DNA from: Bdellovibrionales bacterium CG10_big_fil_rev_8_21_14_0_10_45_34
GTDB lineage: Bacteria; Bdellovibrionota; Bdellovibrionia; Bdellovibrionales; 1-14-0-10-45-34
DNA length: 64,000 nt
Assembly (NCBI GenBank): GCA_002778785.1
Contig: PEZS01000006.1
Location: 202,537-266,536, forward strand
Direction of reading: 5' to 3'
A program made the position numbers and the translations under genes. Position 1 is the stretch's first letter; every line of letters starts with the position of its first letter. Shown here piece by piece: positions 36,268 through 48,745 of the stretch. The notes below the pieces were generated by a model. That model was not told the DNA's origin and made no database searches. It saw only the letters and a list, made by a program, of their open reading frames with translations.

Positions 36268-36356
36268 TACTTGTCTCTCTTCTCTGGGCCAGCTTCAGAT
36301 AGCCGTGATTGAAAGGACGCCATCTGCTGCGGTCTCGCTTCTTCATCTCCCTCCGA
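36268..36356. repeat. 89-bp direct repeat, left copy (module 1 boundary)
   Basis: This 89-bp segment just downstream of phoR is repeated at 38376-38464 in the same orientation with one mismatch that I can see. The two copies flank the first regulator/exported-protein pair. Read on the minus strand, both contain a short open frame that encodes KKRDRSRWRPFNHGYLKLA, so the repeat might be part of a small gene. Confidence 0.9.
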
Positions 36357-36425: not shown

Positions 36426-36444
36426 GTGCCATTGAGATTGGCAC
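36426..36444. promoter_or_regulatory. Inverted repeat upstream of the module 1 regulator
   Basis: GTGCCA and TGGCAC form perfect 6-bp arms with a 7-base spacer, 57 bases before the regulator start. It could be an operator. No clear sigma-54 or sigma-70 promoter could be assigned at this place. Confidence 0.35.
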
Positions 36445-36500
36445 ACTTTGTATCCAAAACAGTATGGCGATCTTTTGTGTCGTGAGATACTGCAACCGCC

Positions 36501-37289
36501 ATGAAAAAAGAAATTAACCCTACTGATAGATTAGAGCCCGACTTTAGAACTTTTTTGCAGAAAGAGCTCCTCAATAGGTGTCGAAAAAATCCAAACTATT
36601 CATTGAGATCATTTGCGAAGTCTTTAAGTATTAGCCCGTCGGCACTTTCAGCAATGCTAAATTCCAAAAGATCCATAACTCCTAAAATGAAGCTTCGATT
36701 AGGGACGAACCTCGGTTTACAGAGGGAAGAAGTACTCGAAATGATAGCGCTCCAAGACGGCGGGCAGTGGCATGAAAGACAAAGGCTTCAATTAGATACC
36801 TTTGCCGTAATTTCTGATTGGTACCATTATGCAATACTAGAGCTGACTCACGTTCAAGGTTTTAAAGGAGACCCTAAATGGATCTCTTGCAAACTAGGTA
36901 TTACCAAATCCGAAGTCAACATTGCATGCGAAAGACTGGTAAACCTGGGCCTACTCGAAATCACTTCAGACCACCAGTGGAAGGATACATCTGAAAATGG
37001 CTTCATCACAAATGCATATGATGAGCTAACCACTGCCGCCTCAAAGAAGCTACAGAAGCAAATGTTAGAGTTGTCTATTAGAGCACTCATGGAATTGCCA
37101 CTTCACTCAAGGAGTCACAGCTCAATAACAATGGCAATCGATCCTGATGATTTACCGGAGGCCAAAGAAAAGATTAAGAGATTTAGAAGGGACCTTTGTT
37201 CATACTTTGAGAAAAAGAAGAAGCGAAAGCAAGTTTTTAACCTGAGTATTGGATTGTATCCAATATCTAAAGAAAGCGAGGAAGCATGA
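36501..37289 (+). CDS. DUF4423/TIGR02147-like transcriptional regulator (module 1)
   Basis: The 262-residue protein has an N-terminal helix-turn-helix (about 30-75: YSLRSFAKSLSISPSALSAMLNSKRSITPKM, split as LRSFAKSL and PSALSAMLN). The DUF4423-like C-terminal domain holds ISDWYHYAILELT, PKWISCKLGITKSEVN, LVNLGLLE, SSITMAIDPDDL and KIKRFRRDL. The order matches the family known from Bdellovibrio and Fibrobacter. Two similar genes lie at 42123 and 46429. Its stop (TGA) overlaps the ATG of the exported-protein gene, so both are probably translated together. Confidence 0.88.
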   Translation: MKKEINPTDRLEPDFRTFLQKELLNRCRKNPNYSLRSFAKSLSISPSALSAMLNSKRSITPKMKLRLGTNLGLQREEVLEMIALQDGGQWHERQRLQLDTFAVISDWYHYAILELTHVQGFKGDPKWISCKLGITKSEVNIACERLVNLGLLEITSDHQWKDTSENGFITNAYDELTTAASKKLQKQMLELSIRALMELPLHSRSHSSITMAIDPDDLPEAKEKIKRFRRDLCSYFEKKKKRKQVFNLSIGLYPISKESEEA

Positions 37290-38263
37290 AAAATAAATTA
37301 TCTCCTATACTTTTTGCCATCGTGATTGCGACCGTACAAGCCGGATTTGCCGGAAAAGAGGGGAGCGGTTCGAGAAAACCAATAACTGATATTGGTATTT
37401 CAAATCTAAAGGCTGCGCTAAGTAAGGAAATCGTTCAGATCATTGGAGATTGGGATATTACTAAGATCAGATTGATCGATAGGTCTCGGTCCCTTCACAA
37501 ATACCTAATTGTTGCAGAAGGAGAAGCTGCAAACACATCTTGTGAATTGAAAGTCACAATATTTAATTCCGTGACTGGCTCGGCGGAGGACGGTGAAATT
37601 AGACGGGTGGAGCAGGATTCTCCGTGTTCGTCGGCCAATTCTAGCGGTGAATTTAGCAATTTTGAGCAATTGAGATCAGTTCTTAAAAGTACGGATCTTG
37701 TTAAAAGATTGGGTATGAATTTTGAGCCCAAAGAAATCGAACGCATTGGACAGGACGCACATACAACACATTACAAGATTACAGCCTCTACGATTTCCAG
37801 CGCCGATGTATGTGAATTACGGGCAACAGTTTCAAACAAGATAGATGCGAAAGACGCTGATTTTGGAGTAAACATATCACCGGCAAACTGCACAGCATCA
37901 ATGACAGTCCCGAGAAGTGTTTTCGTGGAGTTTGAAGACGAGTTAGAGGTTTTTGCCAACATTCTTTTCACTGAAGGGAATGCGTATTCAAAATATATTA
38001 CGGCAGCTCAGCGTATTCCAAAGGAAAAACGCGCTGAAATTCGCGGGTTTATGAAAAGTTCAAACGAATCCAAATTCGCTGAAGTCTTTGAAAAACGTAA
38101 ATACGAAATGAAGGAAAAGTTTGTCAATAATCCAGATATAACCATTTACGAATTTTATATTTATTTGGGCAGAGAAATAATGGGCCTAAATGTTGGGCAA
38201 GGCGGAATTGTAAGCCCCGTGATTGCAGGATTATCTTTGGCCGCATTGTACATTGTAGACTGA
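37286..38263 (+). CDS. Exported protein of module 1
   Basis: The 325-residue protein starts in an ATGA overlap with the regulator and has a signal peptide (SPILFAIVIATVQAGFAG). The mature protein contains two similar halves (about 35-125 and 130-215), each with a Cys pair (TSCELKVT and DSPCSS; DVCELRAT and PANCTAS). It looks like a tandem repeat of a disulfide-bonded domain. A helical segment and a hydrophobic C-terminal stretch (VSPVIAGLSLAALYIV) follow. It is not similar to the exported proteins of modules 2 and 3. Confidence 0.75.
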   Translation: MKNKLSPILFAIVIATVQAGFAGKEGSGSRKPITDIGISNLKAALSKEIVQIIGDWDITKIRLIDRSRSLHKYLIVAEGEAANTSCELKVTIFNSVTGSAEDGEIRRVEQDSPCSSANSSGEFSNFEQLRSVLKSTDLVKRLGMNFEPKEIERIGQDAHTTHYKITASTISSADVCELRATVSNKIDAKDADFGVNISPANCTASMTVPRSVFVEFEDELEVFANILFTEGNAYSKYITAAQRIPKEKRAEIRGFMKSSNESKFAEVFEKRKYEMKEKFVNNPDITIYEFYIYLGREIMGLNVGQGGIVSPVIAGLSLAALYIVD

Positions 38264-38281
38264 GTTTTTGAGACTCGGTTA

Positions 38282-38352
38282 TTTGAATGCTTTTGTCGCA
38301 TCGACTCCGCCGTTCGAAGCAAATAGAAGGCTCTGGCCTTGCATCTGTCGCC
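38282..38352 (+). pseudogene. Degenerate copy of the phoR 3' end
   Basis: The stretch TTTGAATGCTTTTGTCGC, TCGACTCCGC, AATAGAAGGCTCTGG parallels phoR at about 36029-36106 (F-box to G2 region) with many substitutions and at least one indel. It no longer encodes the kinase motif. In phoR the corresponding segment is followed, after about 170 more bases, by the 89-bp repeat; here the repeat follows after about 25 bases. Confidence 0.65.
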
Positions 38353-38375
38353 TTTTGAATCACGGCGGAGTTGAC

Positions 38376-38464
38376 TACTTGTCTCTCTTCGCTGGGCCAG
38401 CTTCAGATAGCCGTGATTGAAAGGACGCCATCTGCTGCGGTCTCGCTTCTTCATCTCCCTCCGA
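38376..38464. repeat. 89-bp direct repeat, right copy (module 1 boundary)
   Basis: This is the second copy of the segment at 36268-36356, same orientation, start-to-start distance 2108 bases. It ends 45 bases before the stop of the ATPase gene on the minus strand. Together with the adjacent phoR relic it indicates duplication of the phoR 3' region around module 1. Confidence 0.9.
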
Positions 38465-38508
38465 TACAGTAAGGGTGAGGCCAAATGCTCTCTCTTTGCG
38501 ATTGATAC

Positions 38509-39708
38509 CTAGGTCTCAAAATATTTGAGTAAATAGTTCGCCAACTTCTTGATGGGTACGGCCGTAGTCTCTGAACCGAGCCCCTTGCTTTCGCCGCCTG
38601 CTGTGACGACGATAAGTTCGTAATCTTTCGTGAAAACTTTTTTCGCCTCGGGATCTAAAACAATCGGACGCGCACTTTGAATTCCCAGCTTTGCTTCAAT
38701 AAGCAATTTCTTATTGCCTTGAGCAACAATAAAGTCGATTTCTGCACCGTCCTTCGTTCTCCAAGTGAAGATTTGCCAGTCGCGTACGAAATGATCACGG
38801 GTCTTAAGAATCTCTGAATAGACTAAGGATTCAAAAAGTGCACCTGACTGAGGGGAGTTCCAAAGAGCCTCTTGTTCGACGTGTCCCTGAAGGCGTGAGC
38901 ACAGCCCCAAGTCAAGAAAGTGTAGTTTCGGCATCTTTACAATTCTTGAAGAAAGGTTTGTTAAATAGGGAGTTACCAAATCGACTATACGGTTCTGCAC
39001 CAAAAGATGAATCCAAGAATTTACGGTGCTATGATTGACCCGGCTTGCCTGGCAAATGTCCGACACATTTAAGAACTGGGCGGTGCGAGCGCCAAGAAGT
39101 CTCATGAACGTCTCGTACTCCCCCACTTTCTGAATGCCCGCAGAGAGAGCTATGTCTTTTTCAAGGTAGCTCGTAATGTAATCATTTAGGTAATGGATCG
39201 GGCTCAATTGCTCTGTCGTGTAAAGTTGTGGGAAGCCGCCTTTGATTAATATTTGCTTGATTGTTATATCAGGAAAGGCTCGAGAGACTTCATTTACGGA
39301 CAACCCATGAAGAGTAAAGAGCTGACATCGACCAGCTAGAGACTCCTTTACATTGAGGTCGAGCAAAGTTTTATTCGACCCAGTAAAATAATAAAGAGTG
39401 GTGAGGGACTTCTTATTGTGAAGTTCCTCTCTGCGTTTACGATCAATCAACTTTTTTACTTCAGGAAATAGATTCGGCGCATACTGAACTTCATCTATCA
39501 AGCAAGGGAGAGCTGATTCACTCAATAAAAACTCCGGGTCGGTTTGCGCTCGATGTCTCAGATGGAGATCGTCAAGGTAGATCTCACTTTTCATTGGCAG
39601 TTGAGACAGCATCGTAGTCTTGCCCACTTGGCGAGGGCCCCAAACCATTACGGCCTCAAGCGTTGCAACCGAGCTAATTGTGCTAAAAAGATCCCTAATT
39701 ACATACAT
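38509..39708 (-). CDS. AAA_14/DUF4143 ATPase
   Basis: The 399-residue protein has Walker A GPRQVGKTT (24-32) and Walker B LPCLIDEVQ (about 68-76). The middle contains YYFTGSNKTLL and LAGRCQLFTLHGLS, and the C-terminal DUF4143 domain (about 190-350) includes KDGAEIDFIVAQGNKKLLIEAKLG, a PD-(D/E)xK-like segment. Such ATPases are widespread in accessory regions and may act in defence or DNA-linked functions, but the role is not settled. A 38-bp piece of its 3' half is duplicated at 40990. Confidence 0.92.
   Translation of the reverse strand: MYVIRDLFSTISSVATLEAVMVWGPRQVGKTTMLSQLPMKSEIYLDDLHLRHRAQTDPEFLLSESALPCLIDEVQYAPNLFPEVKKLIDRKRREELHNKKSLTTLYYFTGSNKTLLDLNVKESLAGRCQLFTLHGLSVNEVSRAFPDITIKQILIKGGFPQLYTTEQLSPIHYLNDYITSYLEKDIALSAGIQKVGEYETFMRLLGARTAQFLNVSDICQASRVNHSTVNSWIHLLVQNRIVDLVTPYLTNLSSRIVKMPKLHFLDLGLCSRLQGHVEQEALWNSPQSGALFESLVYSEILKTRDHFVRDWQIFTWRTKDGAEIDFIVAQGNKKLLIEAKLGIQSARPIVLDPEAKKVFTKDYELIVVTAGGESKGLGSETTAVPIKKLANYLLKYFET
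38643..38680. repeat. 38-bp exact repeat, copy inside the ATPase gene
   Basis: TCGCCTCGGGATCTAAAACA and the 18 bases that follow are identical to 40990-41027. This copy is coding sequence of the DUF4143 domain, so it is the probable source. Confidence 0.95.
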
Positions 39709-39952
39709 TTGGCCATTTTACGGTGAGAACATAAAATCGTCAAACATTATCACTGGTCGATAGTCGGTTTGAATTTTCTGAGTTCTACCGCTCTTGATAT
39801 GTAAACGAAACTAGAACTCTCGCGCGTAGGGTTACTACACCAAAGATGGTAATCATTACTCTCACACCCAGGCCTCGGATCCAGTATAATCAGCGCAACA
39901 CTAATCATTAGCCGTACTTTTCCGAAGTTGTTTTTCAACAAACTTTGGGTCA

Positions 39953-40981
39953 GTGCCAACCTCGGAGTTAAATGTGCTAGTATATCGGTCGCTGGTTACC
40001 GTTCTCTACCTTGCATTCACCGCATCTAGCGCTTGGGCTCAGGCTGAGGCTTATCGGCAAGCCGACACTTTACCGCTCTCTGAGCGCCCAGCATGGCTTG
40101 AACGAGCGTCGCGGTCCGTCGGGCGGGTGAACATGGGAAGCTATTGTACGGCGACGCGTATCTCGCCCCAGGGCCATATTCTCACTGCGTTCCACTGCAT
40201 TTCGGCCTGCATGTATGGAGCGGAATTCGAAACCATGGTAAGAGAGTTTTCTCAGGGTGGTAGCGCGTGGGAATTTACACGGCCAGGCGGACAGCTTGGC
40301 AACCTGCGATGCACTTCACGTCGCCATGGCATTCTTGAGCCAAAGCACTATGAGTGGCGGAGGCCAATGGTAGTGCTTGCGGTCGCTGGCCGCGGCTATC
40401 TTTCCCCAAAGGCTTCGGTAATGTTGCCTTTGCTTGATAATGATTTGTTCCATGAGTTCCGGAAGGAAGGTTTCACCGCGCTAGGGGATTATGACGATTT
40501 CGCTATTCTGAAGGAAGTGGAAGTTGATCAGGCGGCACCTTTCTTAAAGGTCTCCTGTAAGAAAGGTTTTACTAAAGACGAGAGAGTTTGGTCGTACGGG
40601 TACCCCTACTATCATGAGGGCCGGAACAGGCACTACTACACGCCCGCATACAGCCATGGGCAGGTACTTGAACGTATCGAGTACACATCGGCTATAGAAG
40701 ATGTAAACTCCGGCAGGTTGTCACGTGATAGCGCACTTCGCACCTATTTCGATCCAAAGCTCTTCTGGACATCCCTTGACGTCGGAGTAGGAGCAAGCGG
40801 TGCCCCGGTGCTGAACGAGCAAGGTGAGATAAGCGGGATAACGATTATGAAATACACGGGAAATACTCGTTATACGTACGACCGAGGGGCACACATCGCG
40901 GTTTCGATCAATCACATTCGCACGGAATTGAGTCGTCTATTGCCGAAAACTGATTACGAGGCAATCGTCGACTGCCCCTAG
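39953..40981 (+). CDS. Exported trypsin-like serine protease (second in window)
   Basis: The 342-residue protein starts at a GTG without a strong ribosome-binding site and has a signal peptide (VTVLYLAFTASSAWA). The triad is H81 (LTAFHC), D182 (GDYDDFAILKE) and S282 (GVGASGAPV). Extra Cys pairs suggest disulfides. It differs clearly from the protease at 15185. Its G+C content and codon use look higher than those of the genes beside it, which may indicate separate acquisition. Confidence 0.88.
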   Translation: MPTSELNVLVYRSLVTVLYLAFTASSAWAQAEAYRQADTLPLSERPAWLERASRSVGRVNMGSYCTATRISPQGHILTAFHCISACMYGAEFETMVREFSQGGSAWEFTRPGGQLGNLRCTSRRHGILEPKHYEWRRPMVVLAVAGRGYLSPKASVMLPLLDNDLFHEFRKEGFTALGDYDDFAILKEVEVDQAAPFLKVSCKKGFTKDERVWSYGYPYYHEGRNRHYYTPAYSHGQVLERIEYTSAIEDVNSGRLSRDSALRTYFDPKLFWTSLDVGVGASGAPVLNEQGEISGITIMKYTGNTRYTYDRGAHIAVSINHIRTELSRLLPKTDYEAIVDCP

Positions 40982-40989
40982 CGGCGACG

Positions 40990-41027
40990 TCGCCTCGGGA
41001 TCTAAAACAATCGGACGCGCACTTTGA
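40990..41027. repeat. 38-bp exact repeat, displaced copy of part of the ATPase gene
   Basis: This copy lies 9 bases after the protease stop and is identical to 38643-38680, same orientation. The matches stop abruptly on both sides. It may be a scar of recombination or the remnant of a second ATPase gene that once followed the protease. Confidence 0.95.
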
Positions 41028-41147
41028 GGCATGGGGGCATTGCGAGCTCAAAAACACAGCATTCGAGATGATTACCGCAGATAATTTTCAGAACCATTGC
41101 TAGTTGACACTTTTAAGGTAAAACAGGTTTACACAAAAGGAGTAGAA

Positions 41148-41594
41148 ATGTTGTTTATAAAACTAATTGCACTTGGCCTTGTTTTTGTAACTTCAAGCGC
41201 GATGGCCGCCCAAACAATTAAATGTCAGAGTGAGGTTATGTCGGGCTCGTTGGAAGTAAAATTGTACTTTAATAGAGCGGGCCAGCTTCAGCCGATTGAA
41301 CCTAAAATAAAACTTCGCGGTTATTACCAAAACGGTTCTCCGTTCGGTCAAAAGTTTCAATCCATAAGTATTGTTTCCGACGGATCAGGTTACACGCAGA
41401 TTGATTTTGTGGATCAATATGATTCTCCGAATGATGATTACCCTAGGCAGAGACTTCAGCTCCAGTTTGCGACAAACATATTAAATAGGGACTTTAGCCA
41501 AACTGCCGCTTTATTGGTTTCTGGTGAGGATAGGGGCAGCACAGAAAAGCTAGAAAATTACGCTTTACATATGAATTGCTCGGGGCGAAAATAA
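41148..41594 (+). CDS. Small exported protein
   Basis: The ATG at 41148 has AAAGGAGT upstream and is preferred over an in-frame start 51 bases earlier. The 148-residue product has a signal peptide ending SSAMAA and a mature beta-rich domain with two Cys residues (IKCQSE and MNCSGRK) placed near its ends, probably one disulfide. Function unknown; it is not part of a regulator pair. Confidence 0.7.
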   Translation: MLFIKLIALGLVFVTSSAMAAQTIKCQSEVMSGSLEVKLYFNRAGQLQPIEPKIKLRGYYQNGSPFGQKFQSISIVSDGSGYTQIDFVDQYDSPNDDYPRQRLQLQFATNILNRDFSQTAALLVSGEDRGSTEKLENYALHMNCSGRK

Positions 41595-41624
41595 CTCCCC
41601 CTATTTAGGTTGGAAAAAAGTCCT

Positions 41625-42002
41625 ATGAGACAGTCAAGTTCCGTCGAACATCTGCGACTTTGCGGGTCAAACACTTGTACTATCGAAACAGACTTGAAAC
41701 CGACACCATCAACTTTTTAACCAAGAAGTTTACAACTGAAAAGCTGAATACACTCATGAAGTGGATGACGAAGTACTGCTGCGACACTCTACGCCTTCGT
41801 TAAATCCAATGTGGAGCCGACCAACAACAATGCTGAGCGAGAACTCAGGCCGGCAGTGCTGATGAGGAAAACCTCGTACTGCAACCGCTCAGAGCGGGGT
41901 AAGCAGAGTCAGGCAATACTTATGAGCACAATTGCCTCTTCAAAAAAACAAGACCGTAATTTTATGAGATACGCCTCAGATCGACTTAAAACTCGAATTT
42001 AG
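41625..42002 (+). pseudogene. Frameshifted remnant of an IS66-type transposase
   Basis: The 3' part encodes VEPTNNNAERELRPAVLMRK, then SERGKQSQAILMST, the conserved C-terminal block of IS66 transposases. The 5' part continues in another frame (TVKFRRTSATLRVKHLYYRN, LNTLMKWMTKY) and breaks at about 41795. Most of the element is missing and no terminal repeats were found. It lies just before module 2. Confidence 0.7.
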
Positions 42003-42122
42003 GTGAGTAGTTACGTTTTGTTCCCGCCTTTCGGGTTTTTCTTGAATTGGGATCACTTTGTTCCCAAAAAAGTTGTGCATCGAAGCTGAAGCCACTAAAT
42101 CTATATACGAAGGCGGGACAAA

Positions 42123-42890
42123 ATGTCAGCAAAACGGTCATGCCATAGCGGCGCAGAGCTACTTTCAAATGTCTTGTCCCAGAAAAAGCAAAAGAATGCC
42201 AATTACACCCTAAGAGCATTTGCTAGGGATCTAGAGATACCTCCAGGACGGCTTTCTGAGTTCATATCGGGCAAAAGAAAGGTCTCAAAGCGAATGTATA
42301 ATCGTTTGATTGAGAAGCTGAGTATCTCGCCTTCAGAAGCGAGAAAAGTTTTTGACCAGGCATTGATAGAACAGTCTGATTCTCATTTCTATCAAATGAG
42401 TGATGATCAGTTTTTTACTTTGGCAGATCCCATCCACTTTTTCATATTGTGTCTTTTTGACACGGAGGACTTTCAATCCAACACCAAATGGATGGCAAAA
42501 CGACTCAACGCAGACGTCGTAGAGGTGAAACTTGCTTTTGAGCGTTTAGTTAGAGTGGGATTAGTTGAAACTAGAGACGGGGTCTTAGTTAAACGAAAAA
42601 AGAATATCGCAACGACAGATCAAATTGCTAATGTGGCATTGAGAAAGTCTCACGAACAAACACTCAAACATGCGGAAGAGGCATTGTGGACAACAGAGAT
42701 CGAAGATAGAGACATTTCTTCGGTAACAATGGCGGCAGATATCAGTCAGATTCCGCGGGTTAAAAAAGAAATCAAAAAATTCAGAAGACGAATTATGGCA
42801 CTCTTAGAAAACGAGAAAGCTAGTGAAGTTTACAATTTAAATATTCAGTTGGTACCAGTAACAAGAAAAATAAAGGAGAATGTGTCGTGA
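42123..42890 (+). CDS. DUF4423/TIGR02147-like transcriptional regulator (module 2)
   Basis: The 255-residue protein has the HTH segment (about 25-70: YTLRAFARDLEIPPGRLSEF, ISGKRKVSKRMYNRL) and the same C-terminal domain as the regulators at 36501 and 46429: TKWMAKRLNADVVEVKLAFE, LVRVGLVE, SSVTMAADISQIP, KEIKKFRRRIM. The conserved DWYH motif of the other two is changed to ADPIHFF, so ligand or contact specificity may differ. Its stop overlaps the GTG of the exported-protein gene (GTGA). Confidence 0.87.
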   Translation: MSAKRSCHSGAELLSNVLSQKKQKNANYTLRAFARDLEIPPGRLSEFISGKRKVSKRMYNRLIEKLSISPSEARKVFDQALIEQSDSHFYQMSDDQFFTLADPIHFFILCLFDTEDFQSNTKWMAKRLNADVVEVKLAFERLVRVGLVETRDGVLVKRKKNIATTDQIANVALRKSHEQTLKHAEEALWTTEIEDRDISSVTMAADISQIPRVKKEIKKFRRRIMALLENEKASEVYNLNIQLVPVTRKIKENVS

Positions 42891-44362
42891 AACAATTCTT
42901 ATGTTGTCTGTCTATCGTAATATGCACCGGTTTGGCAGCTCAAGCACAGCGTGGACCGCTTATGGGTGGTGAAAGAGGCAACGGCGGTGACGTCGACGAA
43001 ATTCTCATTCACTCGATAGCGACAGAGATTGCGCGATACTTGCAAACGGCAGAAGGATCGCAGCTGATACCCGAGGTTAATGGAGCAGATATGCAAAAGC
43101 TGTTAGATGAAGTGAAGGTATCTGTAGACGAACAAGATTTAGAGAACGAATTAGGCCACTCGCGCACAGCGATCAATCAGCCTGAAAGACAAAGAGTGTT
43201 AGTTGATAGACGTCGATTTACACCGTACAGGTTAACTGGAAAAGTTGTGGTGCCTCTTGTGGCTCATGAATTTTTTGGTTTGATGGGCGTCGAAATCGAG
43301 GAGTACAGTCTATCAAGCCGTCTGTCCGCGATTAGCGATAAGATATTGGACAGTGCGCTTTCCACGCAGGAGAATATTTATTACTTCTCTGCAGAAAAAC
43401 TAAAAAGGCCTATCGCCCTCTTTAGAACTTCGATTGTGCTTGATGAGAAAGGGAAGTTAAAAAGGGGAATCTTTGCGCGGCCTACGCGAATTATCTCTGA
43501 TCAGATTGGTATAGTTGTAGAGCAAGGCTCTTGCTTTTACGTTTCTTTAAACCTTATACATCTCTGCGGGACTAAAGAGCCTTATAAAGTAAAAATACGA
43601 TACACTGAGGCGGATAGTTGGAAGGAAGCGACACTACTATTTCGCAGTTCAAGTATCTCATTTTTTAGAGATTTCACGTTGAGTAGTGTTTATATTCGGG
43701 CGGGTTCTGCCTTTTCGTTTGGTAACATTTCGGGTCAGATACAAATGATTACCCAGGGCGAAAAAGGTAATCTTTTGACGGTAAGCTGTTATTCCTATCT
43801 TGAGAGGGATTTTGGAAAGTGTGAGACGACTCTGCAGAGCCAGAAAATATACTTTAGTTTTTTGAAGTTTCATTCTCGCAGACTACTAGAAAGACTGGAG
43901 TCGTTTGATGATCAGGCGGTTAGGCTACGGGTTCCGCAAATCACTCCCCAGATGAATTTTAATAGTAAACAGGCAATACTCTTCGACTTAAACGGCAATG
44001 TTGTAAAGGGGCAGCTGTGGGGAACAGCTAACATAAGAGTTGAAGGGCGTCTTTACTCAATCAAAAAGGCAAGTTTTGATTATAACGGAAGGGTTCATTT
44101 TTCGAGCAATAAAGAGATGCCGACGAGTTACTCGGGTGCTCCAATTGTTGCTTCAGAAGCCTCAGCATCTGCTTATTGCAGAAGCATAGACCATGACCTT
44201 GCGGAATCATCTAGTCGTATTGTGCATTTCACAGGTGAAATGACTTTCTACGATTACACGAGAGAAGAATTCGTGACCCACAGTCGCGGCTCTCAAGAAG
44301 TTTTTGATAAGCTAATTTGTAAGAAAGATTTGGTTGGCAACTCCGCCGACATAATTCAATAG
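42887..44362 (+). CDS. Exported protein with an HExxG motif (module 2)
   Basis: The 491-residue protein starts in a GTGA overlap with its regulator and has a signal peptide (CLSIVICTGLAAQA). Its N-terminal domain shares with the module 3 protein the blocks ERGNGGDVDEILI, SRTAINQP, VLVDRRRF, VVVPLVAHEFFGLMGVEIEE and SSRL. The His-Glu in AHEFFG recalls metal-dependent active sites but is not an HExxH zincin motif. The C-terminus ends in TGEMTFYDYTREEFVTHSRG, also shared. The rest is beta-rich. A periplasmic or secreted role is inferred. Confidence 0.82.
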   Translation: MKQFLCCLSIVICTGLAAQAQRGPLMGGERGNGGDVDEILIHSIATEIARYLQTAEGSQLIPEVNGADMQKLLDEVKVSVDEQDLENELGHSRTAINQPERQRVLVDRRRFTPYRLTGKVVVPLVAHEFFGLMGVEIEEYSLSSRLSAISDKILDSALSTQENIYYFSAEKLKRPIALFRTSIVLDEKGKLKRGIFARPTRIISDQIGIVVEQGSCFYVSLNLIHLCGTKEPYKVKIRYTEADSWKEATLLFRSSSISFFRDFTLSSVYIRAGSAFSFGNISGQIQMITQGEKGNLLTVSCYSYLERDFGKCETTLQSQKIYFSFLKFHSRRLLERLESFDDQAVRLRVPQITPQMNFNSKQAILFDLNGNVVKGQLWGTANIRVEGRLYSIKKASFDYNGRVHFSSNKEMPTSYSGAPIVASEASASAYCRSIDHDLAESSSRIVHFTGEMTFYDYTREEFVTHSRGSQEVFDKLICKKDLVGNSADIIQ

Positions 44363-44367
44363 CCACG

Positions 44368-44383
44368 CGCGCCCTGGAGCGCG
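44368..44383 (+). terminator. Possible terminator after module 2
   Basis: CGCGC and GCGCG form a 5-bp all-GC stem with a 6-base loop, starting 6 bases after the stop codon, followed by GGCATTTTACC. The T-run is short, so this is a weak candidate. Confidence 0.4.
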
Positions 44384-44774
44384 GGCATTTTACCGGAGTC
44401 GATTAGCCTTAATGACGTCAAACTTAGAGATAAGACTATCGATTCAGAGGTACTATTGTAATACGTCCGTCGTTAGAGCTGAAGTTAAAAGCCAAGCAGT
44501 TCGGCCAAGAATTTCTATTGAGATACAAAGAGAAAACTGTGTTCCCCCGCTTAGTAAAACTTTCGAGCGTAAGCTTTTAAAAAAATCACCATTGATATTG
44601 ACTTAGTTGAGACCGCCAAATTAAGAGCTAATACTTATTGGCTTCGAACTACTCAGCCCACAGAGTGTACCCGCTCTAAAATACGAAGTGCTGACCAAAA
44701 TCCAAGTGCGCCCAATAGTTCGTGTGGAAAACTTCTTTGACACTGCCTTAAGTAAAAAGTAGACCCTGCAACTG
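44384..44774. other. Non-coding or decayed stretch between module 2 and the glycosyltransferase
   Basis: About 390 bases with no supported gene. A 64-codon frame on the plus strand has no ribosome-binding site and no recognisable sequence. The composition is AT-rich. TTGACA at about 44737 could be a -35 element for the glycosyltransferase, but no good -10 follows at 17 bases. Confidence 0.4.
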
Positions 44775-45521
44775 ATGCAAATTATTGTTGGCGTTCTGAG
44801 CTTTAATCATCCTCATCTCACTTTGTCGTGTATTGAATCAGTGCCCAAGGATTGTCCAGTTTTGCTCGTTCACAATGGTAGTAGTCGTGAAAACGTGGAG
44901 TTAATAAAAAGTAAAACCGTCGAACGGAACTTTCTTCATATCGTTATCGAAGAAAACAAAGGCTTCACAGGAGGCATAAACCGACTCCTGACTGAAGCCT
45001 TTCAAAGTTTTGATGTTTGTCTTTTTTTGAGTAATGACACGAAAGTTTTACAGTTTGATCTAGCTGAAATTGCACATTCAAAGGATTCAGTTGGCGTTCC
45101 TCAAATAAAATATCGCTCAGGAAAAGTCGCAAGCATAGGCGCTAAAGTTAACCTTTCCAATAAAAAGCTCATTCACTGTAAATCAAAAGAAGAATTTGAA
45201 TGCGATTCTGAAGACTATAATCGGTATGTTCCAGGGGCGTCCTTCGCTATAAGCAAAAATGTTTTTCAAAAGGTTGGCCCGTTCGATGAGTCGCTGCATA
45301 CTTACTGGGAAGACGTCGATTGGTCTTTGAGAGCGACTTCGTTAGGAGTGGATTTTAAAGTTCTCAAAGGCACGGTCATTGAGCATGGAGTCGCGAAGAC
45401 AACGCGCAAAGATCCGTTTTACTCAAACTACCTCTTTCATCGCAACAAAGAGATCGTGTGCAGTCGCTGGAGCCAGAAACCAGTAGGGCGTTCAGCTGGA
45501 ATCACTTTTGTAGACGGATGA
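44775..45521 (+). CDS. GT2-family glycosyltransferase
   Basis: The 248-residue protein has the GT-A layout: IIVGVLSFNHPHLTLSCIES, VLLVHNGSS, NKGFTGGINRLL, LSNDTKV (the DXD-like position), then YVPGASFAISKNVFQKVGPFD and YWEDVDWSLRATSLG. It resembles rhamnosyl- and other GT2 transferases that build surface polysaccharide. It stands alone without other polysaccharide genes. Part of an accessory island; its AT-rich sequence differs from the core genes. Confidence 0.88.
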   Translation: MQIIVGVLSFNHPHLTLSCIESVPKDCPVLLVHNGSSRENVELIKSKTVERNFLHIVIEENKGFTGGINRLLTEAFQSFDVCLFLSNDTKVLQFDLAEIAHSKDSVGVPQIKYRSGKVASIGAKVNLSNKKLIHCKSKEEFECDSEDYNRYVPGASFAISKNVFQKVGPFDESLHTYWEDVDWSLRATSLGVDFKVLKGTVIEHGVAKTTRKDPFYSNYLFHRNKEIVCSRWSQKPVGRSAGITFVDG

Positions 45522-45579
45522 AAGAATTCAAGCTGTCGGCCGCAATGTTTATTACCTGAGCCGCTTGCGGTAGGCGCAT

Positions 45580-45618
45580 GCGAATAACGAAAGCGCGGTA
45601 CCAAATGGAAACAGGTAC
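45580..45618. repeat. Dispersed GGAAxCAGGTAC repeat, copy 1
   Basis: GCGAATAACGAAAGCGCGGT followed by ACCAAATGGAAACAGGTAC resembles copy 2 at 46311-46351 over about 40 bases. GTACC and GGTAC can pair as arms. It lies between the glycosyltransferase and the antitoxin gene. Confidence 0.6.
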
Positions 45619-45622
45619 AGGG

Positions 45623-45970
45623 TTAGGCTCCGGTTCTTCTTATTATTTTCGGCGCTTGTCGCGCTCTTTCAATATACTTTATTGCACGTCTTTCAATAGT
45701 CTGAAGGTCCTTGGATTTTCGAAATGTGTTATTCGGGTATAAAAATGCCGTAGGATGCAAGCCAAAAGCGGCGGCAAACACTTCCGCATAGTGTTGGCTC
45801 ATATCGACTTTGCCGTTCTCGATAGCGCTGAGATGAGATTCACGAATGCCCGTGACGTCTTCGACCTCCTTTAAAGTCATGCCCAAACCTTTTCGAAATA
45901 TCCGCACCAATTCGTTTGGCGTCGCTTCATCCACTTCAAGCTCTTTCAGCATTTTTCTTAAGGATGACAT
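45623..45970 (-). CDS. XRE-family HTH antitoxin-like protein
   Basis: The 115-residue protein has an XRE helix-turn-helix (about 25-80: LVRIFRKGLGMTLKEVEDVT, GIRESHLSAIENGK) and a short basic tail. AGGAGAAG precedes the ATG. A RelE-like toxin relic lies 12 bases upstream on the same strand, giving the toxin-first order of HigBA-type systems. A perfect palindrome lies before the toxin relic. It may still repress its own promoter. Confidence 0.85.
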   Translation of the reverse strand: MSSLRKMLKELEVDEATPNELVRIFRKGLGMTLKEVEDVTGIRESHLSAIENGKVDMSQHYAEVFAAAFGLHPTAFLYPNNTFRKSKDLQTIERRAIKYIERARQAPKIIRRTGA

Positions 45971-45982
45971 AAGGTTCTTCTC

Positions 45983-46135
45983 CTATTTTTTATTGTTGTG
46001 GGTCGCCGTCACTCGGACCACCATCACAATCAGCTTCCGGCCTTCGAAAGGATAGATGACCCTTCCTCTGTACGAAAAACTTGCAGAGCGAAGACGAGTC
46101 CACTCGGCTTCAAGCGGGTGATCGTTCCCACGTTC
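45983..46135 (-). pseudogene. Truncated RelE/ParE-family toxin remnant
   Basis: A frame of 50 codons encodes HPLEAEWTRLRSASFSYRGR and VIYPFEGRKLIVMVVRVTAT, the C-terminal half of RelE/HigB-type toxins, and ends 12 bases before the antitoxin start. It has no ATG, GTG or TTG in frame before these blocks and meets a TAG 12 bases upstream of its first codon. The N-terminal part (about 35-45 residues) is missing. A GTG in another frame follows a good GGGAGGTG site, which could be the original start before a frameshift. Confidence 0.7.
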
Positions 46136-46149
46136 CTCACCTCCCTATC

Positions 46150-46175
46150 TTAACTTACATAAAAGTGTAAGTTAA
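46150..46175. promoter_or_regulatory. Perfect palindrome, probable operator of the toxin-antitoxin locus
   Basis: TTAACTTACA (46150-46159) and TGTAAGTTAA (46166-46175) are perfect 10-bp inverted arms with a 6-base spacer. They lie upstream of the toxin-relic reading frame and its GGGAGGTG site. Such a site fits binding by a dimer of the XRE protein. Confidence 0.75.
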
Positions 46176-46310
46176 CACGCTAGAAGGCCATTTGTGAACT
46201 GGGAGCATCTGAAATCAAATTTGAGAGAAGGTGAAGACTGGAATACTCCTGAAGTTGTAGTATGGCATTGAAGCCCCATCGTTTAGTTTCGGAGAAATGT
46301 GTCAACGAAC

Positions 46311-46351
46311 GCAAATAACGCCAGCGCGCTTCCAAGAGGAAGCAGGTACCT
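46311..46351. repeat. Dispersed GGAAGCAGGTACC repeat, copy 2
   Basis: GCAAATAACGCCAGCGCGCT followed by TCCAAGAGGAAGCAGGTACC. GCTTCC and GGAAGC form a 6-bp stem with a 4-base loop. It lies directly upstream of module 3; copy 3 lies directly downstream of it. Confidence 0.65.
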
Positions 46352-46428
46352 AAAGTGATTCATTTTTGGATCAGTTTGAATCTATAGTTCTTGCCATTGC
46401 AAAAAAGTCTATTGAGGATAAAGGCTTC

Positions 46429-47226
46429 ATGGAAGCAACTCTTGTACATTTCCTCAAAAACGAATTAGCAAAACGTGTTTCTAAGAACAGTCGCTACTCC
46501 ATGCGGTCGTATGCAAAGTCGTTGGGGCTAAGCATCGGCGCCATATCTGGAATTTTAAGCGGGTCTCGTCCGTTGACGGCAAAGGGAGCCGAGAAAATTT
46601 GCGATAAGTTGGGTCTTTCACCAGCTAAGAAGTCTGAATATATCTACGATCTGGTTTCAAAAATGAATGGGAGAAACGGACTAGATAAACCAGAATACAA
46701 TCGATTAGAAATCGATGAAGAAACTTTTCGTATCATTTCTGATTGGTATCATTGGGCTATCATGCAGCTAGTGCGAACTCGGAGGTACTTGTCGAACCCT
46801 AGTCATTCACAACCAAAATGGGTAGCCAAACAGCTTGGTATTTCACTTTTAGAAGCGAAGCTTGCTTTGGAACGCTTACAGAAGCTAGGGTTTCTTAGAT
46901 TAGAGAAAACTGGATTTTACAGTAGAACCTCCAAGAGTTTTACGACTTCTAACAAGTCAGTTACTAATGAGGCTTTCAAAAAATGGCAGATGCAAGTCAG
47001 AGAAAAAGCGCTTGTTTCATTGCGAGATGATCCGATTGAAGTTCGAAGTATGACTTCCATGACTATGGCCATTGATCCAGAAAAATTAGAGCAAGCAAAA
47101 CTAAAGATCGATCGTTTTCAAGAAGAGTTGGCGGATTTCTTAGAGTCGGATGGGCGTTATGAAGTCTACCAACTTTGCGTGAGCTTATTTCCATTACAAA
47201 TAAAGGAGGATGAAACGAATGTCTAA
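46429..47226 (+). CDS. DUF4423/TIGR02147-like transcriptional regulator (module 3)
   Basis: The start at 46429 has AAAGG upstream and gives 265 residues; the frame stays open to a TTG at 46366. The HTH segment is YSMRSYAKSLGLSIGAISGI, LSGSRPLTAKG. The C-terminal domain has ISDWYHWAIMQLV, PKWVAKQLGISLLEAKLALE, LQKLGFLRLE, SMTSMTMAIDPEKL and LKIDRFQEEL, close to the module 1 regulator. The gene overlaps the exported-protein gene by 8 bases. Confidence 0.87.
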   Translation: MEATLVHFLKNELAKRVSKNSRYSMRSYAKSLGLSIGAISGILSGSRPLTAKGAEKICDKLGLSPAKKSEYIYDLVSKMNGRNGLDKPEYNRLEIDEETFRIISDWYHWAIMQLVRTRRYLSNPSHSQPKWVAKQLGISLLEAKLALERLQKLGFLRLEKTGFYSRTSKSFTTSNKSVTNEAFKKWQMQVREKALVSLRDDPIEVRSMTSMTMAIDPEKLEQAKLKIDRFQEELADFLESDGRYEVYQLCVSLFPLQIKEDETNV

Positions 47227-48745
47227 AAACAATTTGCAATTAAGGGGCGAAAGGAAGCCTGGTCTTTGCGGCTCGAATTGGCTATTGGCACTTTTGATAC
47301 TTGCTTCGTTTATTGCGGGCACCCATGAATCATTAGCGGGGGATAGCGGTCACGGCGGCGATGCTGATGAAGTGCTTATACAAGCTGTTGGCGGTGCAAT
47401 TTCAACTTTTTTAAGTACGCCATCGGGTGCGGCGCTGTTTCCAGAGGTTGATTCCCAAAAGTTCAAATCAGTTTTTGAAGAAATCAAAGTCATAGTCGAC
47501 GAAAAGGCCGTTTATAATCGAGCTGGGCTTAGAAGAACTGCGATTAATATCCCCGAAGAAAAAGAGATTCGAGTCGATCGTACTTTGTGGAGTCCGATTA
47601 AGGAGCAGGCGGGAGTGATGGTTCCCTTAGTGTTTCATGAAATACTGGGGGTTTTAGAGATTGAAATAGAAGAGTTGACTATTTCAGGCAGAATCCGCCC
47701 CTTCGCCGCCGACATCCTAGCAAATGCTCTACAATCCACACAGGGTATTTGGTTTCTTGATCATGAAAATTTAGCCAAACCTATCCCACTCTTTAAAACT
47801 TCTGTGAAATTCGACAGCAAGGGGAGATTTAGTGATGGCGTGGTTGCTAGACCCAGCAAGCTTAAACTATCGAATCTAAATTTGATTCTACTTGAGGGTG
47901 ATAAGATTCTTGTATTTCCTAGTGATGAAAGATTTTTGAGAATCATCATGCAGGATCTAGAGGCTGATAGGGACGGCTCTGTCATGCTGGGAAGATCTGG
48001 GTGGGTGAGATTCCAGAATGTTGATACAGTCAATTTTTTCAATATGTTTACATTGAAGAATCTTTATCTAGCGAGTGGAATTCCCTTAAAGCTGGGGAAT
48101 GTTACGGGCAGACCTCGGGGGTTTGATTTAAACAAATTAGGAGGATTGAAAATAATATATTGTGAACGATTAGACTGTGAAGCCAAGGTGCAGGGGCAAG
48201 CAATCCCCGTTCGGGTTGCCGCCTTTCACGAAGACGGGTCATTGCATTATTTGTCAAACTCTCAAGATAAGAGTTTGACAGTTCCACTCAAAATTGGCGA
48301 TGCAGCTACTCAGATTCAAGTGAGCGTATCTGGCCTTGAATTTAGTCGGAGGGGCGAAATTTTGAGGGCAGAGCCTATTCCCGCAGCAAGTGCTGAAAAG
48401 TATGGGTTTAGATTCGATTTTTTCGTAATTACCGTTAATGAAATGTCGGGCGCCATCCCAATCTCGCGGGCTGATAGGTTCCCTGTCAATTATGCCAATG
48501 TCCCAGTGTTGGCTGAAACCGGGACTTCAGATTTTTTAAGGGAGATTTGCGTAAAAAATGGCCATCCGGTTGAGTCCAGGCCTGAATCAATTTTTTATGA
48601 TAGCATCCACTATAGCGGCGAAAAAACATTCTACAGTGCCAGACAGAAAGAGTTCGTTACTCGCAGAGAGGGTTCCACGCAAACAATTAAATCTATTGAA
48701 TGTTGGCTCAAAGGCCACATTAAAGGATCAGAGCTCAGGCAGTAG
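47219..48745 (+). CDS. Exported protein with an HExxG motif (module 3)
   Basis: The ATG at 47219 was chosen because AAAGGAGG lies 9 bases upstream; the ATG at 47210 abuts that site. The 508-residue protein has a signal peptide (LLALLILASFIAGTHESLAG) and is a full-length homologue of the module 2 protein: DSGHGGDADEVLI, RRTAINIP, IRVDRTLW, VMVPLVFHEILGVLEIEIEE, and SGEKTFYSARQKEFVTRREG near the end. Between these blocks the two diverge strongly. Function unknown. Confidence 0.82.
   Translation: MSKNNLQLRGERKPGLCGSNWLLALLILASFIAGTHESLAGDSGHGGDADEVLIQAVGGAISTFLSTPSGAALFPEVDSQKFKSVFEEIKVIVDEKAVYNRAGLRRTAINIPEEKEIRVDRTLWSPIKEQAGVMVPLVFHEILGVLEIEIEELTISGRIRPFAADILANALQSTQGIWFLDHENLAKPIPLFKTSVKFDSKGRFSDGVVARPSKLKLSNLNLILLEGDKILVFPSDERFLRIIMQDLEADRDGSVMLGRSGWVRFQNVDTVNFFNMFTLKNLYLASGIPLKLGNVTGRPRGFDLNKLGGLKIIYCERLDCEAKVQGQAIPVRVAAFHEDGSLHYLSNSQDKSLTVPLKIGDAATQIQVSVSGLEFSRRGEILRAEPIPAASAEKYGFRFDFFVITVNEMSGAIPISRADRFPVNYANVPVLAETGTSDFLREICVKNGHPVESRPESIFYDSIHYSGEKTFYSARQKEFVTRREGSTQTIKSIECWLKGHIKGSELRQ

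Follow-up and report, generated by a model that had tools for sequence, protein, structure and literature searches.

The window studied here, a stretch of 64,000 nucleotides (nt) from Bdellovibrionales bacterium CG10_big_fil_rev_8_21_14_0_10_45_34, contains three modules of one arrangement within 36501-48745 on the + strand, each consisting of a gene for a DUF4423/TIGR02147-type regulator and, overlapping its end, a gene for a protein with a signal peptide (Table 1). Signal peptides were called by a hydropathy heuristic throughout. The analysis suggests that each module may be a two-gene operon with a private DNA address, controlled by its own regulator.

Three stop/start overlaps had been described in an earlier note on this DNA and are confirmed (ATGA, GTGA and 8 nt at 47219). 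For the third exported protein the start at 47219 is better than that at 47210, because AGGAGG at 47204-47209 sits 9 nt before it, and the annotated start of the third regulator at 46366 is probably too early, because the operator- and -35-like stretch falls inside the open reading frame (ORF). The same note had called the regulators mutually homologous and two of the exported proteins homologues with the third unrelated, and both statements hold: all three regulators exceed the cut-offs of the two family models given below, the 42887 and 47210 proteins share 29-30% identity, and the 37286 protein is not detectably related to them (16%).

Table 1. Operator-like, promoter-like and coding features of the three modules (positions in the window)
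Feature	Position	Strand	Remarks
Module 1 operator-like element	36426-36451	+	GTGCCA 36426-36431, 7 nt, TGGCAC 36439-36444, running into exact core ACACTTTGT 36443-36451
Module 1 promoter-like stretch	36463-36491	+	weak; TATGGC (without TTG) at the -35 place; GATACT at the -10 place
Module 1 regulator	36501-37289	+	HigA-like helix-turn-helix (HTH) domain and DUF4423 (winged-helix-like)
Module 1 exported protein	37286-38263	+	325 amino acids; GKEGSG just after the signal peptide; ATGA, 4-nt overlap
Module 2 extra upstream half-site TTGTTCCC	42018-42025	+	repeated at 42058 within the operator
Module 2 operator TTGGGATCACTTTGTTCCCAA	42047-42067	+	score 12.5; clear site
Module 2 promoter-like stretch	42073-42101	+	-35 TTGTGC 42073-42078; TAAATC at the -10 place 42096-42101
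Module 2 regulator	42123-42890	+	PF14394/TIGR02147
Module 2 exported protein	42887-44362	+	GTGA, 4-nt overlap; GNGGD stretch; N-terminal domain zincin-like, HEFFG replacing HExxH
Module 3 operator-like dyad TTTGGATCAGTTTGAATCTAT	46365-46385	+	weak; score 10.0, which shuffled sets reach in 6.6 of 174
Module 3 -35-like TTGCCA	46391-46396	+	usual 16 nt spacing; GAGGAT at the expected -10 place
Module 3 regulator ORF	46366-47226	+	likely start ATG 46429
Module 3 exported protein	47210-48745	+	GHGGD stretch; HEILG; possible starts ATG 47210 (17 nt overlap) or 47219 (8 nt)

The regulators and their family

The three window regulators score 136.4, 135.4 and 132.9 bits against PF14394 (DUF4423; cut-off 30) and 120.7, 100.4 and 107.9 bits against TIGR02147 (curated cut-off 50). 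The closest solved relatives of their N-terminal HTH domain are found among the HigA antitoxins (best E 4.6e-06), and the stretch that follows it has a weak likeness to winged-helix proteins such as ArsR and MarR (E 0.002 and up); no sensor, peptide-binding or TPR domain occurs among their Pfam matches listed at E<=1. With 31.5, 18.5 and 14.3 bits against the HigA model TIGR02607 they stay below its cut-off of 47.7. A HigBA toxin-antitoxin system was rejected accordingly, as the HTH domain is only weakly HigA-like and the window partners have 325-511 amino acids and signal peptides, unlike a small cytosolic RelE-like toxin. A defence system was likewise set aside, since PADLOC returned weak partial matches only (best E 1.2e-05, to PDC-M21A within the first regulator).

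The genome of the window holds 14 PF14394 matches. The family is present in all 29 genomes of the relatives search and in 127 of the 144 sampled for this predator-rich phylum, with up to 32 regulators in a single genome; its Fibrobacter members lie outside the sample.

Pairing of regulators and exported genes

That the pair is a functional unit, as proposed in the earlier note, is strongly supported and far from chance. In the genome of the window, nine of the 14 regulators are followed by an exported gene that begins between -17 and +28 nt from the regulator stop. For the other genomes, loci came from the high-scoring end of ordered lists, and the pairing rates therefore apply to the better-scoring members. 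After removal of regulators 90% alike over their last 90 amino acids, 190 were reduced to 176, and to 175 when one more without sufficient room was dropped. In 140 of these 175 an exported ORF has its start between -60 and +120 of the stop, with 89 overlaps, 69 of them by exactly 4 nt; this count includes ORFs later judged to be chance (L025, L039, L042, L084, L088 and L138) and misses exported genes that are seen by eye, for example at L187, L188 and L153. A tally in which nine such genes were added manually (200 of 230) is given no weight here.

A further 60 loci (58 distinct regulators, 56 upstream regions) had been kept aside as a held-out set, for which the tests were written down first. 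Here 52 of the 58 regulators have an exported ORF, 36 overlapping and 27 at -4, a count that includes L213, probably chance, and misses the lipoprotein-like L228. The 4-base overlap is thus the commonest arrangement in both sets, and the enrichment of exported genes after regulator homologues, on which the earlier note had staked its claim, is borne out. When a single automatic gene caller was applied, the next gene was exported and within 30 nt or overlapping for 84 of 122 regulators vs 26 of 375 other pairs from the same loci and the window, or, with same-strand pairs only, 84 of 110 vs 26 of 217 (12 and 158 pairs being convergent). Named loci fetched by the regulator alone were paired in 36 of 45 cases, partial matches included, among them Bdellovibrio bacteriovorus kdesi; 19 of the 24 phylum loci were paired, and the pattern extends across many families of the phylum.

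The suggestion that only the exported part is exchanged did not stand in that form. Partner homology (blastp E<1e-3), counted here, and in the motif tallies of 184 and 194 partners below, without the six chance ORFs named above and L213, is found for 71 of 184 nearest regulators vs 6.5% of all pairs, and it rises from 3-4% of regulator pairs at 30-90 bits to 59% at >=270 bits (34 pairs); the pairs are therefore partly inherited together. Among 69 nearest-regulator pairs at >=250 bits, 26 have partners without detectable homology, so replacement of the partner occurs as well.

A dyad upstream of a promoter-like stretch

A palindrome upstream of one group of orthologues prompted a scan of 174 upstream regions. 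That palindrome, GGTAATTACC, is exact in five of the eight NNWYDRGN orthologues (L015, L017 and L166-L171) and varied in three; it was rejected as the common operator, being present in only 1 of 174 regions of the de-duplicated set, and is perhaps a second operator type. The enrichment of perfect palindromes is greatest for odd centres: with arms of 8 and gaps of 3, 5 and 7, there are 31, 30 and 25 upstream vs 2, 1 and 0 in coding DNA (one palindrome can count at several gaps), and shuffled sequences give 1.8 at gap 3. Even gaps yield 3-8 upstream vs 0.4-1.8 in shuffled sequences. An exact copy of the core that they share, ACACTTTGT, is present on one strand or the other in 31 of the 174 upstream regions and in none of 174 coding stretches (shuffles, mean 0.3), and in 6 of the 56 held-out regions, a count without a control. 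The arms that flank it are inverted repeats that differ by locus, as in TTTGTC-core-GACAAA (L001) and TATTGCC-core-GGCAATA (L130), or, with a variant of the core, TTGTCC-ACACTCTGT-GGACAA (L144).

The position of the dyad is equally constrained. Its centre is followed 16 nt on by TTG and 23 nt further by TA, which is the spacing of a sigma-70 promoter. Strong dyads number 37 at 16 nt before TTG, while other offsets have a median of 5 and a highest value of 15; in the held-out set the corresponding figures are 17 vs 0-5 elsewhere. Strong dyads stand at this offset before 54 of 1565 TTGs in the pooled regions (34.5 per 1000) vs 93 of 42015 (2.2 per 1000) in other DNA of the loci; the rate is 8.3 when the opposite strand of these regions is taken, and 1.8 for the window as a whole. 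An operator score >=10.5 is reached by 56 of 174 regions vs 2.4 expected from shuffles, and by 20 of 56 vs 0.8 in the held-out set. Of 33 sites scoring >=11.5, all except one precede a regulator with a partner, and the -10-like T and A at +39 and +40, which were not used in picking the sites, are present in 53% and 62% of 99 sites. Terminators or RNA hairpins are judged an unlikely cause, given the fixed place upstream of a -35-like TTG and the preference for odd centres; a weaker excess of even-centred palindromes may be due to terminators.

A site scoring >=10 is present for seven regulators in the genome of the window. For the module 2 operator, a match to the inner 17 nt without mismatch occurs only once in that genome, at its own locus; two places have 2 mismatches, and 12 places have <=3 vs 7 in the reversed control. 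The operators do not differ more within than between genomes (mean arm distance 0.660 vs 0.657), and near-identical pairs, 1 of 104 within a genome vs 3.3% between, are too few for a claim.

Co-variation of operator arms and HTH domain

If each regulator reads its own operator, the arms should follow the HTH domain. In partial Mantel tests the arms correlate with the HTH domain given DUF4423 (r 0.16, p 0.0005 for 71 sites; r 0.27, p 0.001 for 28 held-out sites), and the correlation with DUF4423 given the HTH domain is not significant (p 0.08 and 0.21). Among residues named in advance of the held-out test, 51 reached p 0.001, 48 p 0.045 and 57 p 0.093. In the pooled set the first arm begins with TC in 16 of 22 regulators with E51, 4 of 23 with Q51 and none of 11 with K51, 9 of which have GG or GT instead; the held-out set alone gives TC for 4 of 6 with E51 and 2 of 5 with Q51. 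Residue 51 and the first arm appear to be linked by a rough code that falls short of a clean map.

The exported partners

Of 99 partners, 55 fall into one cluster by phmmer and 77 by an iterated profile. A strict G-N-G-G-D-like motif is located at residues 15-65 in 127 of 194 partners and at residues 66-116 in 4. Among 241 other exported ORFs 15 have it, and several of these are partner-like or are partners that the count missed. Outside the recorded partners, GNGGD and LLDYYEA-like stretches also mark a few exported proteins, which may be missed, orphan or second partners. As a genome-wide tag of exported proteins the GNGGD stretch was discarded, with its exact DNA pattern found 4 times in the genome of the window vs 3 in the reversed control, and a search of the same genome for orphan copies of the window partner type returned the two window genes only. 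A second class of partner, with TGNP or TGDP near a lipoprotein-like N-terminus, accounts for 6 of 99 (L004, L022, L037, L081, L107 and L108).

Many partners have an HExxx motif preceded by a hydrophobic stretch. Among 184, its fifth residue is Y in 49, H in 30, G in 17, W in 12, R in 8 and another in 23, and 45 are without such a motif. The active zincin motif HExxH is thus kept in 30 of 184 and in none of the three window partners, where HEFFG (42887) and HEILG (47210) stand in its place and the 37286 protein has no HE motif; zinc catalysis is therefore doubtful for the former two. Some HExxH partners read as metzincin-like HExGHxxGxxH (L018, L172 and L174), others as HExxHHxGIxD (L106, L110 and L119). 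In the alignment of one subfamily (11 rows) G12, G13, H106 and E107 are invariant, and in a second (13 rows) G33, G34, H172 and E173; the rows of both were chosen for the HE motif, so that the invariance of His-Glu, though not that of Gly-Gly, is by choice.

The window partners have no Pfam match at E<=1, and their sole NCBIfam match is to the N-terminus of a signalling peptide (E 0.31). In a Pfam scan of 104 partners (the 3 of the window and 101 of 123 others), no peptidase model among the best 25 of 45 families matched more than seven members (PhageMetallopep, best E 0.0026), and a search of PDB sequences with the partner profile returned one row, not a peptidase, at E 0.19. In the AlphaFold2 model of 42950-44359, confidence is limited to about residues 20-140. 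VIA ranks deuterolysin (Z 6.8, 3.3 A over 117 residues) first among its neighbours, ahead of selecase (6.6) and a Grifola zinc peptidase (6.5), with jannalysin and abylysin also listed; the eight best rows are all zinc peptidases at Z 5.2-6.8, all below 8, with 8-15% sequence identity. The similarity to IrrE is weak (Z 3.1). For the model of an HExxY partner (L161), many of the listed rows are zincins at Z 3-5, led by anthrax lethal factor entries (Z 5.1, 6.9 A), with deuterolysin at 4.5. A zincin fold of the N-terminal domain is likely from these models, not proven, and concerns the fold at most and not the function. Many partners appear to form a very divergent zincin-like group in which the second zinc histidine has often been lost; these are probably binding proteins or pseudo-proteases, and some of those with HExxH may be active proteases.

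One locus (L134, 2988-5696) holds a single frame of 903 amino acids in which a DUF4423 regulator is followed by a hydrophobic signal-like stretch with GQESHG and by a peptidase part with HELGH that we take to be M48-like; it is either a natural fusion or an assembly error.

Proposed private control of each module

We consider that each module is a privately addressed two-gene operon controlled by its own regulator, with self-activation favoured over self-repression, and assign to this reading a probability of roughly two in three. A dimer of the regulator would bind the operator upstream of its own gene, where the shared core would be read by conserved residues and the private arms by variable residues of the recognition helix, including residue 51 of the 36501 protein, and it would act mainly on this one promoter. 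The exported protein would be made from the same message, its translation coupled to that of the regulator. Self-activation appears likelier than self-repression because the dyad is centred near -51, with a poor -35 box downstream of it in which only TTG is conserved.

Several points weigh against this interpretation. A clear operator is present in part of the loci only, 54 of 230 by the strict dyad test and 76 of 230 at a score >=10.5. Two of the window modules are poor examples: module 1 has neither TTG nor symmetric core arms, the flanks of its core being asymmetric (arm score 0) and its best score in the operator scan 8.0, and the operator of module 3 is weak. One orthologous group carries the different palindrome GGTAATTACC, farther upstream than the common core, and palindromes with an even or single-base centre show some upstream excess too (3-9 vs 0.4-1.8 shuffled). 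Because core and spacing were recognised in the first set, a clean test is possible only with the 56 held-out regions, some of which are from genomes already sampled. The Mantel correlations are modest, the DUF4423 part on its own likewise correlates with the arms (r 0.13, p 0.019), and in both sets several other columns share the floor p of residue 51. The five lowest-scoring regulators in the genome of the window (L010-L014) are unpaired, and weaker members of the PF14394 family are under-sampled, as loci came from the top of score-ordered lists. On the side of the partners, the clustering of 77 of 99 by profile may be inflated by signal peptides, the zincin matches remain below Z 8 (best 6.8 and 5.1) with only N-terminal parts modelled well, and Foldseek alone gave no convincing zincin match for the 470-residue model of 42950-44359: its sole match below E 0.001 was GldM (TM-score 0.08), with an archaeal zinc peptidase at rank 22 and abylysin at rank 34. 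Finally, activation rather than repression is what we infer from the position of the dyad alone.

Among the alternatives, the one that we find quite conceivable, if less probable, is a temporal programme in which each unit is an effector of the predatory cycle timed by outside regulators, and the self-operator only sharpens the response. In its favour, the DUF4423 protein Bd3700 is tabled (value 2.67) in the section of one report on predator proteins upregulated during growth within prey, without a clear indication of the exact stage (PMC12546842).

Self-repression, in which the regulator would bind the same private operator and shut its own operon until a cue releases it, seems to us rather unlikely. 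The operator evidence fits either sign, and HTH proteins of the XRE/HigA type are often autorepressors; the dyad centre, however, lies 16 nt upstream of TTG and outside the -35/-10 core, with a constant spacing and only TTG conserved at -35, and such a position is more usual for activators.

A sensor or pheromone pair is more doubtful still. Here the exported partner, or a peptide from its G-N-G-G-D end, would report outside conditions to the regulator in the manner of RNPP systems, as the frequent pairing, the position-bound Gly motif and the one in-frame fusion of regulator, signal segment and M48-like part (L134) could be taken to indicate. The regulators, however, have no match to a peptide-binding TPR domain, the Gly-Gly pair is invariant alongside His-Glu in both partner alignments and may serve the fold of the partner itself, and the single fusion could be an assembly error.

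It is very improbable that the partner is a protease that cleaves its own regulator and so releases repression, as in ImmR/ImmA. An HTH regulator does adjoin an overlapping zincin-like gene, with the weak similarity to IrrE; against this, the partners have a signal peptide by the heuristic and HExxH is rare among them. Membership in the ImmR/ImmA class itself, defined by a cytosolic HExxH protease of the COG2856 type, was rejected on the signal peptide and the lack of HExxH in the window partners. Chance or local duplication, to which the homology of two of the three window partners might point, is hardly credible and was rejected, as the enrichment is found in the gene-caller, pooled and held-out counts and in many families of the phylum.

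If the modules are self-controlled operons as favoured above, a nameless DUF4423/TIGR02147 family, present in most sampled genomes of the phylum, becomes a testable system, in which a single unit of about 2.5 kb contains regulator, operator, promoter and target, and the address seems partly readable from a few residues of the recognition helix. Nature would here provide a large collection of insulated transcription factors whose operators share a core and have private arms, in which to see how paralogous regulators avoid cross-talk, as well as a list of exported, often protease-like proteins under individual control, most of them without a family match. Each of the up to 32 regulators per genome would presumably be switchable on its own, and with self-activation each unit could behave as a two-state switch. 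A bolder and rather unlikely possibility is an array of up to about thirty self-activating switches insulated from one another, each pairing a DNA address of its own with one exported (pseudo)protease, by which single cells could fix different combinations of exported proteins without DNA rearrangement; such an array would be combinatorial variation of the surface or secretome written in transcription-factor specificity.

Other features around the modules

Module 1 has on both sides an 89-nt direct repeat (36268-36356 and 38376-38464, 99% identical), and 35-36 nt of it are found again at two further genomic places (94% and 86%); the repeat may record the way in which the module was acquired. 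Between modules 1 and 2 lies a gene for an exported-looking trypsin-like protein (39953-40981; Trypsin_2 E 8e-10, Peptidase_S46 8e-9). An exact duplication of 38 nt is located at 38643-38680, inside the minus-strand ORF 38509-39708, and at 40990-41027, directly behind the trypsin-like gene, an arrangement that looks like the insertion of a segment.

Comparison with known systems

By the curated cut-offs the window regulators are members of the TIGR02147/PF14394 paralogous family. In the titles and abstract openings of the open-licence literature we found no partner, operator or function described for this family, and no account of such two-gene units.

The RNPP systems ComR/ComS and Rgg/SHP resemble the modules in that a regulator with an XRE-type HTH domain stands beside the gene of an exported product and a palindromic box is placed just upstream of -35. 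The partner here is, however, an exported protein, mostly of 100-600 amino acids, and the regulator carries a winged-helix-like DUF4423 and no TPR match. ImmR/ImmA of ICEBs1 and DdrO/IrrE share with the modules an HTH regulator that overlaps a zincin-like gene; ImmA and IrrE are cytosolic and keep HExxH, whereas the partners here are exported and mostly degenerate. In structure, the N-terminal domain of the 42887 protein comes closest to the aspzincins (M35 deuterolysin) and the minigluzincins selecase, jannalysin and abylysin (Z 6.8-5.2); some HExxH partners read HExxHHxGIxD like them, while the window partners differ by HEFFG or HEILG and by the low sequence identity. What appears to be new relative to these systems is the likely zincin-like partner with a degraded HExxH and a Gly stretch, the dyad 16 nt before TTG, and the co-variation of arms and HTH domain, which includes the held-out loci.

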